Source: Apilactobacillus kunkeei
GTDB lineage: Bacteria; Bacillota; Bacilli; Lactobacillales; Lactobacillaceae
Assembly (NCBI RefSeq): GCF_001308195.1
Contig: NZ_JXDF01000017.1
Location: forward strand, 248,001-312,000
Direction of reading: 5' to 3'
Length of the DNA stretch: 64,000 nucleotides
Shown here piece after piece: positions 17,037 through 21,477 of the stretch (position 1 is the stretch's first letter; every line of letters starts with the position of its first letter). Both the position numbers and the translations under genes were made by a program. The notes below the pieces were generated by a model, which was given only the letters and a program-made list of their open reading frames with translations, had not been told where the DNA came from and made no database searches.

Positions 17037-18065
17037 TTATCCAATTTGATTATCGACAAATCTTAAAGTGAACATTTGAAATAGTAGTTCTGGTGATTCT
17101 GGTGTTGATTTGAGTTTTTCTTCCACATCAACTAGTCCCAAATAAGCATCCCTCAAACTACTAAATTGATACTTACGCACATTTTGCATTGCCAGTTTTA
17201 CTCTAAATGGATGCACCTTTAGCTTTTCTGCAATGTTTCCCTGACTGTATCCCTTACGACTTAACACATTCACCTGTAGTAATAGTCGAAACTGTGATAA
17301 CAAGACTGCATTAATTTGTAATGGTTCTTGATCCTCTACGATTAGGTTACGGTATAAATCGATGGCGTTTTTGGAATCCTTTTTCATTACGTAGTCAATT
17401 AAGTCAAAAACGTTTTGGTCCAATGACTTGGCAACCAAACTATCGATACTGTTTTTAGTAATGACCTTATCCTTTTGACAGTATAGGAATAACTTAGGAA
17501 GTTCGTTCATTGCGGATGATAAATCGTTAGATACTCTTCCTAGTAATTCTTGAAGGGCATCCCCTTCTACCGTGTAACCATTACTCTTAATGTTGTTGGC
17601 AACATATGATTGGATGGCACGATCATCTAGTTTAGTTAAATCGATTACCTCTGCGTTGTTTTTTAATTGCTTAGTAACCTTTTTTCTAGAATCTAGCTTG
17701 CCGTATGGTGCCATGATGACCATGACCGTACTATCAACTGGGTGGTTAACGTATTCAATAAAGCTATCGATGTCATGATCTAAGGTCGACTTGCTACGTT
17801 CACCGGTTAAAAAGTACGGATTGTTTACAACAACCAATCTTTTTTCACCAAAGAATGGCAAACTTTCAGCATCACCCACGGCAGTGGCAATGTTTTGACT
17901 TTCCATGTCATAGCTAGCGAAGTTCATGGTTCTTTCTTCTTCCGGAATTAATTCCACGAAGTGTTTTTTAATTTCATTAATTAAATAGTCTTCTTTACCT
18001 AACACTAGATATATTGGGTTAATATTATTGTTTTTAATTTGTGTTAATAGTTCGTTTACTTTCAT
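17037..18065 (-). CDS. holA: DNA polymerase III subunit delta
   Basis: The delta subunit opens the sliding clamp within the clamp loader. The N-terminal block NPIYLVLGKEDYLINEIKK (about residues 17-35) is diagnostic, followed by the AAA+-like fold without a working Walker A, and the C-terminal collar domain. The 342-residue length is typical. AGGGGAATAGTA precedes the ATG. It begins two bases after comEC, ending the comEA-comEB-comEC-holA operon, an order kept in many Firmicutes. Confidence 0.95.
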   Translation of the reverse strand: MKVNELLTQIKNNNINPIYLVLGKEDYLINEIKKHFVELIPEEERTMNFASYDMESQNIATAVGDAESLPFFGEKRLVVVNNPYFLTGERSKSTLDHDIDSFIEYVNHPVDSTVMVIMAPYGKLDSRKKVTKQLKNNAEVIDLTKLDDRAIQSYVANNIKSNGYTVEGDALQELLGRVSNDLSSAMNELPKLFLYCQKDKVITKNSIDSLVAKSLDQNVFDLIDYVMKKDSKNAIDLYRNLIVEDQEPLQINAVLLSQFRLLLQVNVLSRKGYSQGNIAEKLKVHPFRVKLAMQNVRKYQFSSLRDAYLGLVDVEEKLKSTPESPELLFQMFTLRFVDNQIG

Positions 18066-18067
18066 TA

Positions 18068-20185
18068 CTATTCCCCTTGCAATTTAAATATCCAGTGATT
18101 TCCTAATAATCCATATTTATATGATATCATACCCTGTTTTTGTGTGTTCACGTATGCTAAATTATTATCCTTTAATCTTTCAAGCGTTGCAACACTTGGA
18201 TGGTGATATCGATTGTTCCTACCAGCGGAGATAATTGAAATTTTGGGATGAATGAATTTAAAAAACGCATCACTGCTGGAGGTATCACTACCATGATGAC
18301 CCAATTTCAAATAATCCGCTTTTAGCATCGGATATTTTTGCATGATGTCAATCTCACCACTGGATGGTAGATCACCCATAAACAACCAGCTGCGATTTCC
18401 TTGGATTGTACCCAAGACGACCGAGTCCTCGTTTTTACCGAGGCCACTTACAAAGGGATGATAAATGTTAAACGGAAAATCAGGTAACTTTTGGTTTGCT
18501 TTAATTAACACTAATTTTGTTTTATTCAAATAGGGACGAATTTTCCTCATTATCGATGGATTGTTCTGCAAACCATCCCCGACAATAATCCGGTCGACCT
18601 TTAAATCCGCCAGGATTGCGGGAACATCTCCCGTGTGATCAGCATCCTGATGACTCAATACTAGATTATCAAGATGGCTGATACCGATACTTTTCAAATA
18701 ATTAATCGACGTTTTTTCTGCTTGATAATTTACCTTATTGTTTTGCCTGCGACCAAATTGTAACTTACCACCTGTATCAATCATAGTGATTGAACGGTTA
18801 AACGGCTCACGAATTAGGATGCTGTCACCCTGGCCAACATCGAAAAAGGATACCTCACCCTGCAGTGGATAGTGGATATACATAAACGTGATTAGATACA
18901 TACATAGTAGCATCGACACTCTTTTAAAACTGACCCTGTCGATTACCAACAGTGTCATTATTAGAAGAAGCGTTGCCACATACAGATTGGGTTTACCAAA
19001 ATTAATCTGCCCTGGTAAAGCCCCCAGCCAATTGACTGCATTATCAAAGCTATTCAATATCAACGCCACCACTGAACTAAACCATCCAGAAATTGGGTAC
19101 GTAATGACCGCGATTAATATCATTGGCATAATTAACGCCGAAAATATTGGTATCACCAGATAATTGGCTAGCATCGTCAGTGCGTGCCACTGAAATAGCT
19201 TGTAGATAATAAAGGGTAAACTGACTAAGTTCATCATCACCGTTTGCTTGAGCGGCTTCATTTTATTCGTATAAATCAAGCCGAATGCCAGAGCGTAACT
19301 TAGTTGTGAACCAAACTGTAACAACATCTCTGGTTCAATTATTAAATTGACCATCAAGGTAATCGAAAAGACATCCAAGCTGGTCAATCGCTTCTTTATC
19401 ATCAATGCGATAATGCCGATTTCAACTGTTAATATCGAGCGCATCAAACCAATCGATGATCCGGCAATGACGAAGTACGTTGGCAGAAATATCAAGGTCA
19501 CCCACCGAACCTTCTCCCTGGTCACACGGAATAGTCCCAGTATCATTTTCAAAAGGTTCACGATGTAAAAGACATGCAACCCGGAAATACTAAATAAGTG
19601 AATGAGCCCCAATGTCTTTACACCTGATAGTTCATCGTTAAAGGAATTATCCATAACACCAAGAAATAGACTACTGGCGTAGAGGTTCAAGGGATGTGGT
19701 AATTGGTTCGTGTATTTCAACATCTTCATCCGTAAATAATGAAGAATATCAATGATTGAAAACCGATGTTGTTCTTCTACAATATTTAACTGCTTAACGG
19801 TCAATCGACTGTAGATACCCATGCTCTCGTAGTATTCTTTGGCATCAAACTGGTTAAAGTTTCTGGCCTCATCAAATGGCTGGACGACTCCAGACACATT
19901 CATGGCAATTGGCCTTAAATATTGCTTTACCCTCTTTGCGTCATTACCGTAGACCATTATCTTTTTACCGGTATCAGTAATAGTGCCGATACCATAAAAC
20001 GAGTCGTCACTGTACTTAATATTATCTGGATAAATTAAAACGCTTTGCGTTACCGTTTGTTGTCCTTGAATTTGATTAGCTTGATTTTGTTTATATCTAT
20101 ACCAGCAAGCCAAACAAAAAATAACCACCATGATGGTGGTTATTTTTATTACTAACGCGTTTTTTAATCGAATGATCCGAATCAT
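18068..20185 (-). CDS. comEC: DNA internalization protein ComEC/Rec2
   Basis: ComEC forms the membrane channel that takes single-stranded DNA into competent cells. Seen from the first ATG: a membrane segment (about 8-27), an extracellular OB-like region (about 45-135), the multi-pass Competence domain with SISGLHVFY (199-207), and a C-terminal metallo-beta-lactamase domain with FFDVGQGDS (447-455), SHQDADHTGD (511-520) and LGHHGSD. No ribosome site precedes this ATG. The same frame is open for 33 more codons upstream, to the comEB stop codon, and these encode hydrophobic residues as in full-length ComEC N-termini, yet contain no ATG, GTG or TTG. The true start is unresolved. Confidence 0.88.
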   Translation of the reverse strand: MIRIIRLKNALVIKITTIMVVIFCLACWYRYKQNQANQIQGQQTVTQSVLIYPDNIKYSDDSFYGIGTITDTGKKIMVYGNDAKRVKQYLRPIAMNVSGVVQPFDEARNFNQFDAKEYYESMGIYSRLTVKQLNIVEEQHRFSIIDILHYLRMKMLKYTNQLPHPLNLYASSLFLGVMDNSFNDELSGVKTLGLIHLFSISGLHVFYIVNLLKMILGLFRVTREKVRWVTLIFLPTYFVIAGSSIGLMRSILTVEIGIIALMIKKRLTSLDVFSITLMVNLIIEPEMLLQFGSQLSYALAFGLIYTNKMKPLKQTVMMNLVSLPFIIYKLFQWHALTMLANYLVIPIFSALIMPMILIAVITYPISGWFSSVVALILNSFDNAVNWLGALPGQINFGKPNLYVATLLLIMTLLVIDRVSFKRVSMLLCMYLITFMYIHYPLQGEVSFFDVGQGDSILIREPFNRSITMIDTGGKLQFGRRQNNKVNYQAEKTSINYLKSIGISHLDNLVLSHQDADHTGDVPAILADLKVDRIIVGDGLQNNPSIMRKIRPYLNKTKLVLIKANQKLPDFPFNIYHPFVSGLGKNEDSVVLGTIQGNRSWLFMGDLPSSGEIDIMQKYPMLKADYLKLGHHGSDTSSSDAFFKFIHPKISIISAGRNNRYHHPSVATLERLKDNNLAYVNTQKQGMISYKYGLLGNHWIFKLQGE

Positions 20186-20284
20186 CCATAGACAAAAAAG
20201 CAGTAGACCGAGCTTTAAATCACCAAAGAAAATAATGCTTAATATTCCAATCGAAATCGATGGAAAAATATATAAATTATTAAT
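20186..20284 (-). other. Open in-frame extension between comEB stop and comEC ATG
   Basis: All 33 codons here are sense codons in the comEC frame and begin directly behind the comEB TAA (20285-20287), which is in the same frame. The encoded residues contain LYIFPSISIGIL, an IFFGD stretch and GLLLFCLW, a plausible first membrane hairpin of ComEC. The first codon after the stop is ATT. No purine-rich ribosome site is visible. Confidence 0.6.
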
Positions 20285-20764
20285 TTATTTTGGTAAATAA
20301 GAGCTAAATTCGATTTGTTTGATTGTTTCTTCATCCAAGATTACTTGGTTCAATTCGACGTTGTTTTGTTTAATTAATGACAATGCATATTCATCATTGT
20401 GGTAGTTTCTTAGGTAGTTAATCTTTTTGATTCCCGCTTGTAATAATACTTTGGTACAAGGAAGACATGGGAAATCAGTTACATAGATTTCTGAACCATC
20501 GGTTGATTCACCGAATTTGGCACATTGAGAAATGGCGTTCATTTCTGCATGAATTGTTCTTAAGCAATGGCCGTCTCGCATGTAACACCCAACATCAATA
20601 CAGTGTTCATCCCCTGCAACTGATCCGTTATAACCACCGGCAATAATACGTTTATCTCTTACGATGGTTGCTCCAACAGAAAGTCGGTTACAGGTGCCAC
20701 GTGTTGAAAGTAAAACAGCTTGTAGCATGAAATATTGATCCCATGGAATTCTGTGTTTAGTCAT
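20285..20764 (-). CDS. comEB: dCMP deaminase family protein ComEB
   Basis: ComEB-type proteins deaminate dCMP to dUMP and usually lie in the late competence operon without being strictly needed for uptake. Zinc ligands are visible as His72 with catalytic Glu74 (HAEMN) and Cys100/Cys103 (PCLPC). A second Cys/His cluster (Cys25, His54, Cys55, Cys60, His66) matches the extra zinc site of dCMP deaminases. The length of 159 is normal. GGGAGAG precedes the ATG. It lies 47 bases after comEA and ends in the same frame as comEC. Confidence 0.93.
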   Translation of the reverse strand: MTKHRIPWDQYFMLQAVLLSTRGTCNRLSVGATIVRDKRIIAGGYNGSVAGDEHCIDVGCYMRDGHCLRTIHAEMNAISQCAKFGESTDGSEIYVTDFPCLPCTKVLLQAGIKKINYLRNYHNDEYALSLIKQNNVELNQVILDEETIKQIEFSSYLPK

Positions 20765-20811: not shown

Positions 20812-21477
20812 TTACACTTCTAAAGAATCTTTTAATCTTTCAAATGTCTTATCACCGAAGCCACTAACCTGTTTGATTTCATCGATTGAGTGAAAACCAT
20901 TGTGCTGGTTACGATAATCAATTATCTTTTGTGCTTTCTTTTCACCCACGCGATCGAGTTTTTGGAGTTCATTTAAATCTGCGGTATTCAAATTAACTTT
21001 GACGTTATTAGCAGAATTACCGGTGCTCGTATTATTCGAACTAGCAAACGATGAACTCCCGGCTGCACCCTTTTTATTAACCACGACAACATCTTGGTCG
21101 TTTAATACCTTGGCTAGGTTAACGTTTTGTTCATCGGCATCCGCCTTAAAGCCGCCTGCTTCCTTGATGACGTCGGTAACACGGCTGTTGGATGGGATTT
21201 GGTAGACGCCCGGATGCTTAACCTCACCCTTAACATCAATATATAGTTCTCCCGAAGCACTACTTTGGCTTTGAGAGGACGAGGATGAAGCCACGACACT
21301 ACTTTGTTCTGAATAATCGGTTGCTACATTGTTAGCATCATTGCTGTTTTGATTCATGATTAAAATAATAACTAACCCTAAACTAAAAGCGATTAGCAAT
21401 AGACCAATCAAAATTTTATATGCATGTTCGTCAATTATTTCTTTTATCTGCGTTGAAAAATCTAATATCTTATTCAC
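20812..21477 (-). CDS. comEA: Competence DNA receptor ComEA
   Basis: ComEA binds incoming double-stranded DNA on the outer face of the membrane. A single membrane anchor (about residues 21-41) is followed by a Ser-rich linker, a SLBB domain (about 77-135), a second Ser/Asn-rich linker and a helix-hairpin-helix DNA-binding domain (162-221, VNLNTADLNELQKL and VSGFGDKTFERLK). The start is GTG at 21477, nine bases after a perfect AGGAGG. It is the first gene of the comE operon, directly downstream of the sepM-like terminator. Confidence 0.95.
   Translation of the reverse strand: MNKILDFSTQIKEIIDEHAYKILIGLLLIAFSLGLVIILIMNQNSNDANNVATDYSEQSSVVASSSSSQSQSSASGELYIDVKGEVKHPGVYQIPSNSRVTDVIKEAGGFKADADEQNVNLAKVLNDQDVVVVNKKGAAGSSSFASSNNTSTGNSANNVKVNLNTADLNELQKLDRVGEKKAQKIIDYRNQHNGFHSIDEIKQVSGFGDKTFERLKDSLEV

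Follow-up and report, generated by a model that had tools for sequence, protein, structure and literature searches.

Probable initiation of comEC at a conserved near-cognate codon behind the comEB stop in Apilactobacillus and other lactic acid bacteria

Introduction

The window, that is, the whole 64,000-nucleotide stretch of DNA analysed here, from the bee-associated lactic acid bacterium Apilactobacillus kunkeei, carries on its minus strand the genes comEA, comEB, comEC and holA in that order (Table 1), and the junction between the second and third of these raises a simple question: where does translation of comEC, the gene of the DNA-uptake channel, begin? Behind the comEB stop the comEC frame continues as ATT AAT AAT TTA TAT ATT TTT CCA ... 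TGG, and re-reading upheld the earlier, sequence-only reading on three points: none of these 33 codons is ATG, GTG or TTG, they encode a hydrophobic stretch (INNLYIFPSISIGILSIIFFGDLKLGLLLFCLW), and the ATG that follows them, the only ATG, GTG or TTG up to codon 51 of the frame, has nothing AGGAGG-like upstream, as judged by eye. Initiation at the AUU directly behind the stop, readthrough of the stop, a shortened ComEC and decay of competence had each been offered as an explanation, with a sequencing error to be excluded.

Initiation at near-cognate codons has precedents, the best known being infC, the gene of initiation factor IF3, which starts at AUU or AUA and is autoregulated by IF3. In the available text of three studies, near-cognate initiation lowers protein yield in Listeria, Staphylococcus and Streptomyces (PMC13068326, PMC13009471, PMC5472188), and in that of a fourth, extra IF3 inhibits reinitiation without a Shine-Dalgarno sequence in Escherichia coli (PMC2268962).

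Sampling of the comEB-comEC junction

The junction sample comprised 16 Apilactobacillus loci, 80 loci from named species and 120 loci from genomes of the family and order, the latter hand-picked to spread over genera; some genus names were derived from identical junctions. After a profile search had located comEC, the sequences were aligned, with the F of the helix 1 F-P motif as the anchor. The 217 sequences yielded 176 distinct anchored junctions after removal of seven without a comEC frame, 29 repeat junctions, one frame that was too distant and four without an anchor. A later set of 80 loci contained one without an anchor, leaving 79, and included 13 repeats and three near-repeats of earlier loci. 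Since the loci are related, counts of junctions are not independent.

The locus and its gene products

The upstream and downstream genes were identified by profile matches (Table 1), and A. waqarii and A. nanyangensis have a ComEB identical to the one encoded in the window. The comEC product scores above the cut-off of the ComEC/Rec2 family (TIGR00361, 272 bits; cut-off 190) and of the Pfam Competence domain (PF03772, 109.5 bits; cut-off 23), with the N-terminal DUF4131 at 26.6 bits against a Pfam cut-off of 31.6. An Rfam scan of the window returned tRNA only, and a promoter scan at the comEB-comEC junction gave fewer sites than in shuffled sequences.

Table 1. Features of the comEA-holA segment, in window positions.
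Feature	Position	Strand	Evidence
comEA, upstream of comEB	20812..21477	-	profile matches
comEB, dCMP-deaminase-like, upstream partner of the proposed coupled pair	20285..20764	-	TIGR02571, 265 bits (cut-off 219)
comEB TAA stop	20287-20285	-	sequence
Proposed comEC start codon AUU, 0 nt after the comEB stop	20282..20284	-	aligned position
33 codons ahead of the first standard start	20186..20284	-	pN/pS; AlphaFold2 helices
Internal ATG, comEC codon 34; judged not to be the start	20183..20185	-	sequence; genus comparison
Terminator-like hairpin and U run, comEC codons 46-56	20117..20147	-	14-bp perfect stem; z -3.7
comEC, 738 codons from the AUU, stop counted	18068..20284	-	open frame; TIGR00361
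holA, downstream of comEC; start-codon control	17037..18065	-	profile matches

A near-cognate codon at the aligned start of comEC

Within Apilactobacillus the missing start is the rule. ATT, ATC or ATA occupies the aligned place in all 16 genomes searched, lies directly behind the comEB stop and in frame with it in 15 of them, and in the sixteenth (L015, genome G008) appears as ATT at the same aligned place in a different frame. Such recurrence of a missing start together with one codon class is more than chance would give. The sister strains with ATG or GTG at this place that had been named as the refuting result do not occur among the 16 genomes.

The pattern extends well beyond the genus. 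In 92 of the 176 junctions the interval from the in-frame stop upstream to the F-P anchor contains no ATG, GTG or TTG, and in 79 of these 92 an AUH codon (AUU, AUC or AUA) stands six to seven codons before the anchor, against a background of 26% on average and 72% at most for pairs of adjacent codons over the 40 codons that follow; the other 13 have CTG, GTT, or AUH elsewhere. Standard codons stand five to eight codons before the anchor in 43 junctions and elsewhere in 22. A further 15 junctions, seven of them from Secundilactobacillus, combine AUH at the site with a standard codon farther up within comEB and in the comEC frame, which could be used in its place, and four have AUH at the site with a standard codon in between.

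AUH without any standard start was found in Apilactobacillus (16/16), Fructilactobacillus (7/7), Limosilactobacillus (21/21 anchored), Lentilactobacillus (11/13 anchored), Paucilactobacillus (6/7), Liquorilactobacillus (6/8), Secundilactobacillus (3/10), Ligilactobacillus (2/8), Enterococcus (1/4 anchored) and, with one or two loci each, five further genera, about 15 genera in all. The trait is not universal: Lactiplantibacillus (9/9), Levilactobacillus (14/14) and genus g32 (3/3) have standard comEC starts, and a quick tree requires at least six changes between the two states. The later set gave 11 AUH-only junctions among 79 anchored, one in a further genus (g44), while the four anchored loci of g6, the Limosilactobacillus group, all had TTG or ATG, so that AUH is not fixed in that group.

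It is the genera with ordinary starts that point to the AUU as the initiation codon. ATG, GTG or TTG occupies the AUU-aligned site in g32, in the f2-family genera g39, g47, g52, g60, g73 and g74, and in g44, g50, g64, g79 and g80, and because several genera have their standard start exactly six codons ahead of the anchor, the AUU at that position is read as a start.

Two observations concern the codon itself. Paucilactobacillus kaifaensis (L081) has GTT in place of the ATT found at the comEC start site of its sisters. Selection against ATG was considered on 68 loci of eight genera, 67 with AUH and none with a standard codon at the site; ten third-base changes included no G (P about 0.01-0.02 from four-fold sites), and the idea is not relied on because the g6 loci of the later set had standard starts.

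Selection and structure in the first 33 codons

The 33 codons ahead of the internal ATG evolve as coding sequence in the comEC frame. Among seven close genomes their pN/pS is 0.151, compared with 0.157 for codons 34-338, and in the two other frames it is 0.354 and 2.844. An AlphaFold2 model built from the AUU start on a 36-sequence alignment (mean pLDDT 90.1) places confident helices at residues 6-20 and 23-40 (block pLDDT 88-94), so that the 33 codons would encode transmembrane helix 1 and 11 of the 18 residues of transmembrane helix 2. The matches listed by a structure search were confined to the beta-lactamase-like domain, and the solved ComEC 9vc6 aligns by sequence from residue 21.

These results bear directly on the proposal that translation begins at the internal ATG and yields a ComEC shorter by 33 residues. 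That codon is an ordinary start codon, the sole candidate of its kind nearby, and it is kept in L001-L007, the loci of the seven closest genomes; among the nine other genomes of the genus, however, only L011 has it. Across Apilactobacillus, the first standard start comes 9, 10, 14, 27, 28, 33 or 73 codons after the AUH codon, the longest distance being that in L016 (G014), and these distances reveal no common place for an alternative start. Beginning at codon 34 would, in the model, delete the first helix and most of the second, and it leaves unaccounted for both the purifying selection on the preceding codons and the standard starts that several other genera have at the AUU position. A shortened ComEC is therefore distinctly improbable.

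Decay of comEC, or an erroneous base at its first codon, is scarcely credible: in one genome (G001, L010) comEC does lack about 20 codons within the first helices, but all 16 genomes have an open frame, with a pN/pS of about 0.15 and the same codon class throughout, and in the genome of the window the frames of dprA and of a T2SSE-family ATPase gene are open as well.

Coupling to comEB

The surroundings of the AUH codon suggest a gene that may depend on its upstream neighbour. Predicted Shine-Dalgarno pairing amounts to -1.65 kcal/mol at the 79 AUH starts and -0.97 kcal/mol at the 43 standard comEC starts, compared with -7.37 kcal/mol at 180 comEB starts and -2.77 kcal/mol at 880 random places, so that neither class of comEC start pairs better than random sequence. 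Measured from where the comEB stop ends, the AUH codon is found at -1 to +5 nt in 67 of the 79 cases. The frame of comEC relative to comEB is 0, +1 and +2 in 28, 7 and 44 of the 79 start-less junctions, respectively, and varies even within Limosilactobacillus, Paucilactobacillus and g31. In addition, the last eight codons of comEB show less synonymous change within the genus than any other of the 152 comEB windows, as expected if the RNA of the junction matters, with a permutation P of 0.0004 that is optimistic because neighbouring columns are not independent. A start near a stop, without a Shine-Dalgarno sequence and with a free frame, has the anatomy of termination-reinitiation.

Direct binding of ribosomes to the mRNA at the AUU, without reinitiation, shares the start codon with our proposal and differs in how ribosomes arrive there. 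It is nevertheless quite improbable, given the lack of pairing above background at either class of comEC start and the short distance between stop and start.

Readthrough of the comEB stop, giving a ComEB-ComEC fusion, draws some appeal from the frame, which is the same across the stop in 15 of the 16 Apilactobacillus genomes. The free frame over the wider sample runs counter to it, as do the UAA at the end of comEB in the 16 loci of the genus and the separate standard comEC starts at the same place in other genera, and the suggestion is very improbable.

We thus regard it as likely that full-length ComEC starts at the AUU behind the comEB stop by weak reinitiation of ribosomes that have just terminated on comEB; the first of the explanations originally offered is the one supported by conservation of the codon class, by the aligned standard starts elsewhere and by the purifying selection on the 33 codons. 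Under this proposal, ribosomes ending comEB at the UAA would reinitiate at the adjoining AUU, fresh ribosomes would not be recruited for want of a Shine-Dalgarno sequence, and, a start at AUU, AUC or AUA being presumably weak, ComEC output would be far below that of ComEB. AUH starts without a Shine-Dalgarno sequence thereby probably keep the ComEC channel scarce. By analogy with infC and similar genes, such a start should also be sensitive to IF3. In short, we infer from the junctions that the AUU is used, that it is reached by reinitiation, and that yield is low and IF3-sensitive.

A hairpin inside comEC

A second feature of the gene lies shortly downstream, where the transcript can form a perfect hairpin with a U run behind it (Table 1). 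Of the window's 12 long perfect hairpins, those with arms of at least 11, it alone lies inside a gene. It is present in ten of the 16 Apilactobacillus loci (L001-L010) and absent in six. Synonymous change averages 0.300 and is 0.071 across the hairpin, a value as low or lower being found in three of 290 windows. Covariation is weak: one C-G to U-A double change occurs in two of nine aligned loci, with a score reached by 13 of 500 shuffles and equalled by a slid control. In L010, the locus with the shortened comEC, the ATA start and the hairpin are both retained.

Terminator-like hairpins are also in excess in the wider sample, where 26 of the 176 loci have one among the initial 200 nt of comEC and synonymous shuffles predict 4.1, or 16 against 2.7 when Apilactobacillus is left out; six cut-off settings agree on the excess in this first set. 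Three later comEC segments gave 1, 1 and 2 hairpins (0.5, 0.5 and 2.3 expected), and the controls gave 1 at the comEB start (0.85 expected, 245 loci), 0 at the comEB end (0.40 expected, 245 loci) and 1 at the holA start (0.47 expected, 86 loci). In the later set, with repeats and near-repeats removed, two hairpins were found against 0.95 expected in 63 loci, both in one genus, and did not confirm the excess; because of this result, and because the 16 loci include near relatives, the trend outside Apilactobacillus is suggestive only. The hairpins do not track AUH starts, being few or absent in Limosilactobacillus, Fructilactobacillus and Paucilactobacillus and present in some genera with standard starts.

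The hairpin could stop transcription when comEC is untranslated. If no ribosome reinitiated at the AUU, the untranslated RNA would fold at this place and transcription would end some 140-170 nt into comEC. That weak reinitiation should in this manner decide both the translation of ComEC and, by way of the hairpin, the comEC mRNA is a tentative and rather unlikely extension of the start-codon proposal. Were it true, rare, IF3-tuned reinitiation would set both translation and mRNA of the DNA channel, and the early comEC hairpins of other genera would be parallel versions of the same arrangement.

Relation to known systems and significance

The comEC start shares features with several described systems. 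It has the traits of a near-cognate start, with no usable standard start for a conserved N-terminus and AUH at the position where relatives have their start, as well as the short stop-start distance of a termination-reinitiation pair, 0 nt in the window. A conserved hairpin and U run within the gene, as in a translation-gated attenuator, is found in ten of the 16 Apilactobacillus loci.

infC resembles comEC in its AUH start, and in Apilactobacillus it likewise lacks a standard start before codon 7. Unlike comEC, which has no Shine-Dalgarno sequence and whose proposed start adjoins the stop of the preceding gene, it carries a strong one (GGAGGTGA) in front, and because this is absent from comEC the latter is classed as a near-cognate start and not as an infC-type site.

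In the available text on Staphylococcus aureus, ccpN (AUA) and cvfC1 (AUU) start at near-cognate codons that give about 10% of the AUG yield in poor medium; like comEC they are conserved near-cognate starts in Firmicutes, theirs lowering yield, whereas they have extended Shine-Dalgarno motifs and comEC, lacking a motif, appears coupled (PMC13009471). Streptomyces sigR, according to the portion of its report at hand, starts at GTC and is repressed by IF3; its lineage-wide non-canonical start, which holds the protein low, parallels that of comEC, but it is GTC (GTT in two of 34 species) behind a conserved AGGAGGTG and described for one genus (PMC5472188). Termination-reinitiation pairs, as described in the accessible parts of two studies, have their start a few bases from the upstream stop, as comEB-comEC does, yet use standard starts, ATT figuring there only as a possible rare case with -5 nt overlaps (PMC10666635, PMC2268962). 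For the same gene in Listeria monocytogenes, an excerpt states that the comEC start codon differs between clades, a likeness in start variation, although the excerpt names no codons and the adjoining text concerns changes between canonical codons (PMC13068326).

No near-cognate comEC start is reported in the titles and abstract openings of the open-access matches listed, subscription papers excluded, nor does any of these matches combine a near-cognate start with reinitiation without a Shine-Dalgarno sequence in a single gene of many genera. Taken separately, near-cognate starts and reinitiation are already known; what would be new is a near-cognate start without a Shine-Dalgarno sequence, in about 15 genera and in a competence gene.

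The consequences are both practical and mechanistic. Gene finders restricted to ATG, GTG and TTG would be expected to cut off the first ComEC membrane helices in many lactic acid bacteria, and in the window would place the start at the ATG of codon 34. If the proposal is true, reinitiating ribosomes can use start codons that fresh initiation rejects. To our knowledge, natural competence has rarely been observed in lactobacilli; an AUU start would supply a concrete reason why ComEC may be scarce, and makes the comEC start a possible handle on competence in these bacteria.

Start codons of neighbouring genes and infC

By a crude check, start-less loci number 0 of 180 for comEB, 7 of 90 for holA, 7 of 54 for comEA and 71 of 129 for comEC, the comEA cases being mostly ragged alignment ends as judged by eye. 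All seven holA cases belong to Lactiplantibacillus (L027, L028, L030, L032, L043, L046 and L050), where ATC stands at the aligned start behind a GAAGG-like site and no standard start lies between the upstream stop and residue 7; comEC is accordingly not the sole gene of this kind.

In the 14 of 16 Apilactobacillus loci in which infC was read (L217-L230; the other two were not located), ATT and ATA stand at codons 1 and 3 behind the Shine-Dalgarno sequence given above. Finally, holA of L016 has ATT AAT at the aligned start behind AAGGGAGGTGG, a place usually taken by ATG or TTG among relatives; it was not counted as start-less, which implies a standard codon farther up in frame.
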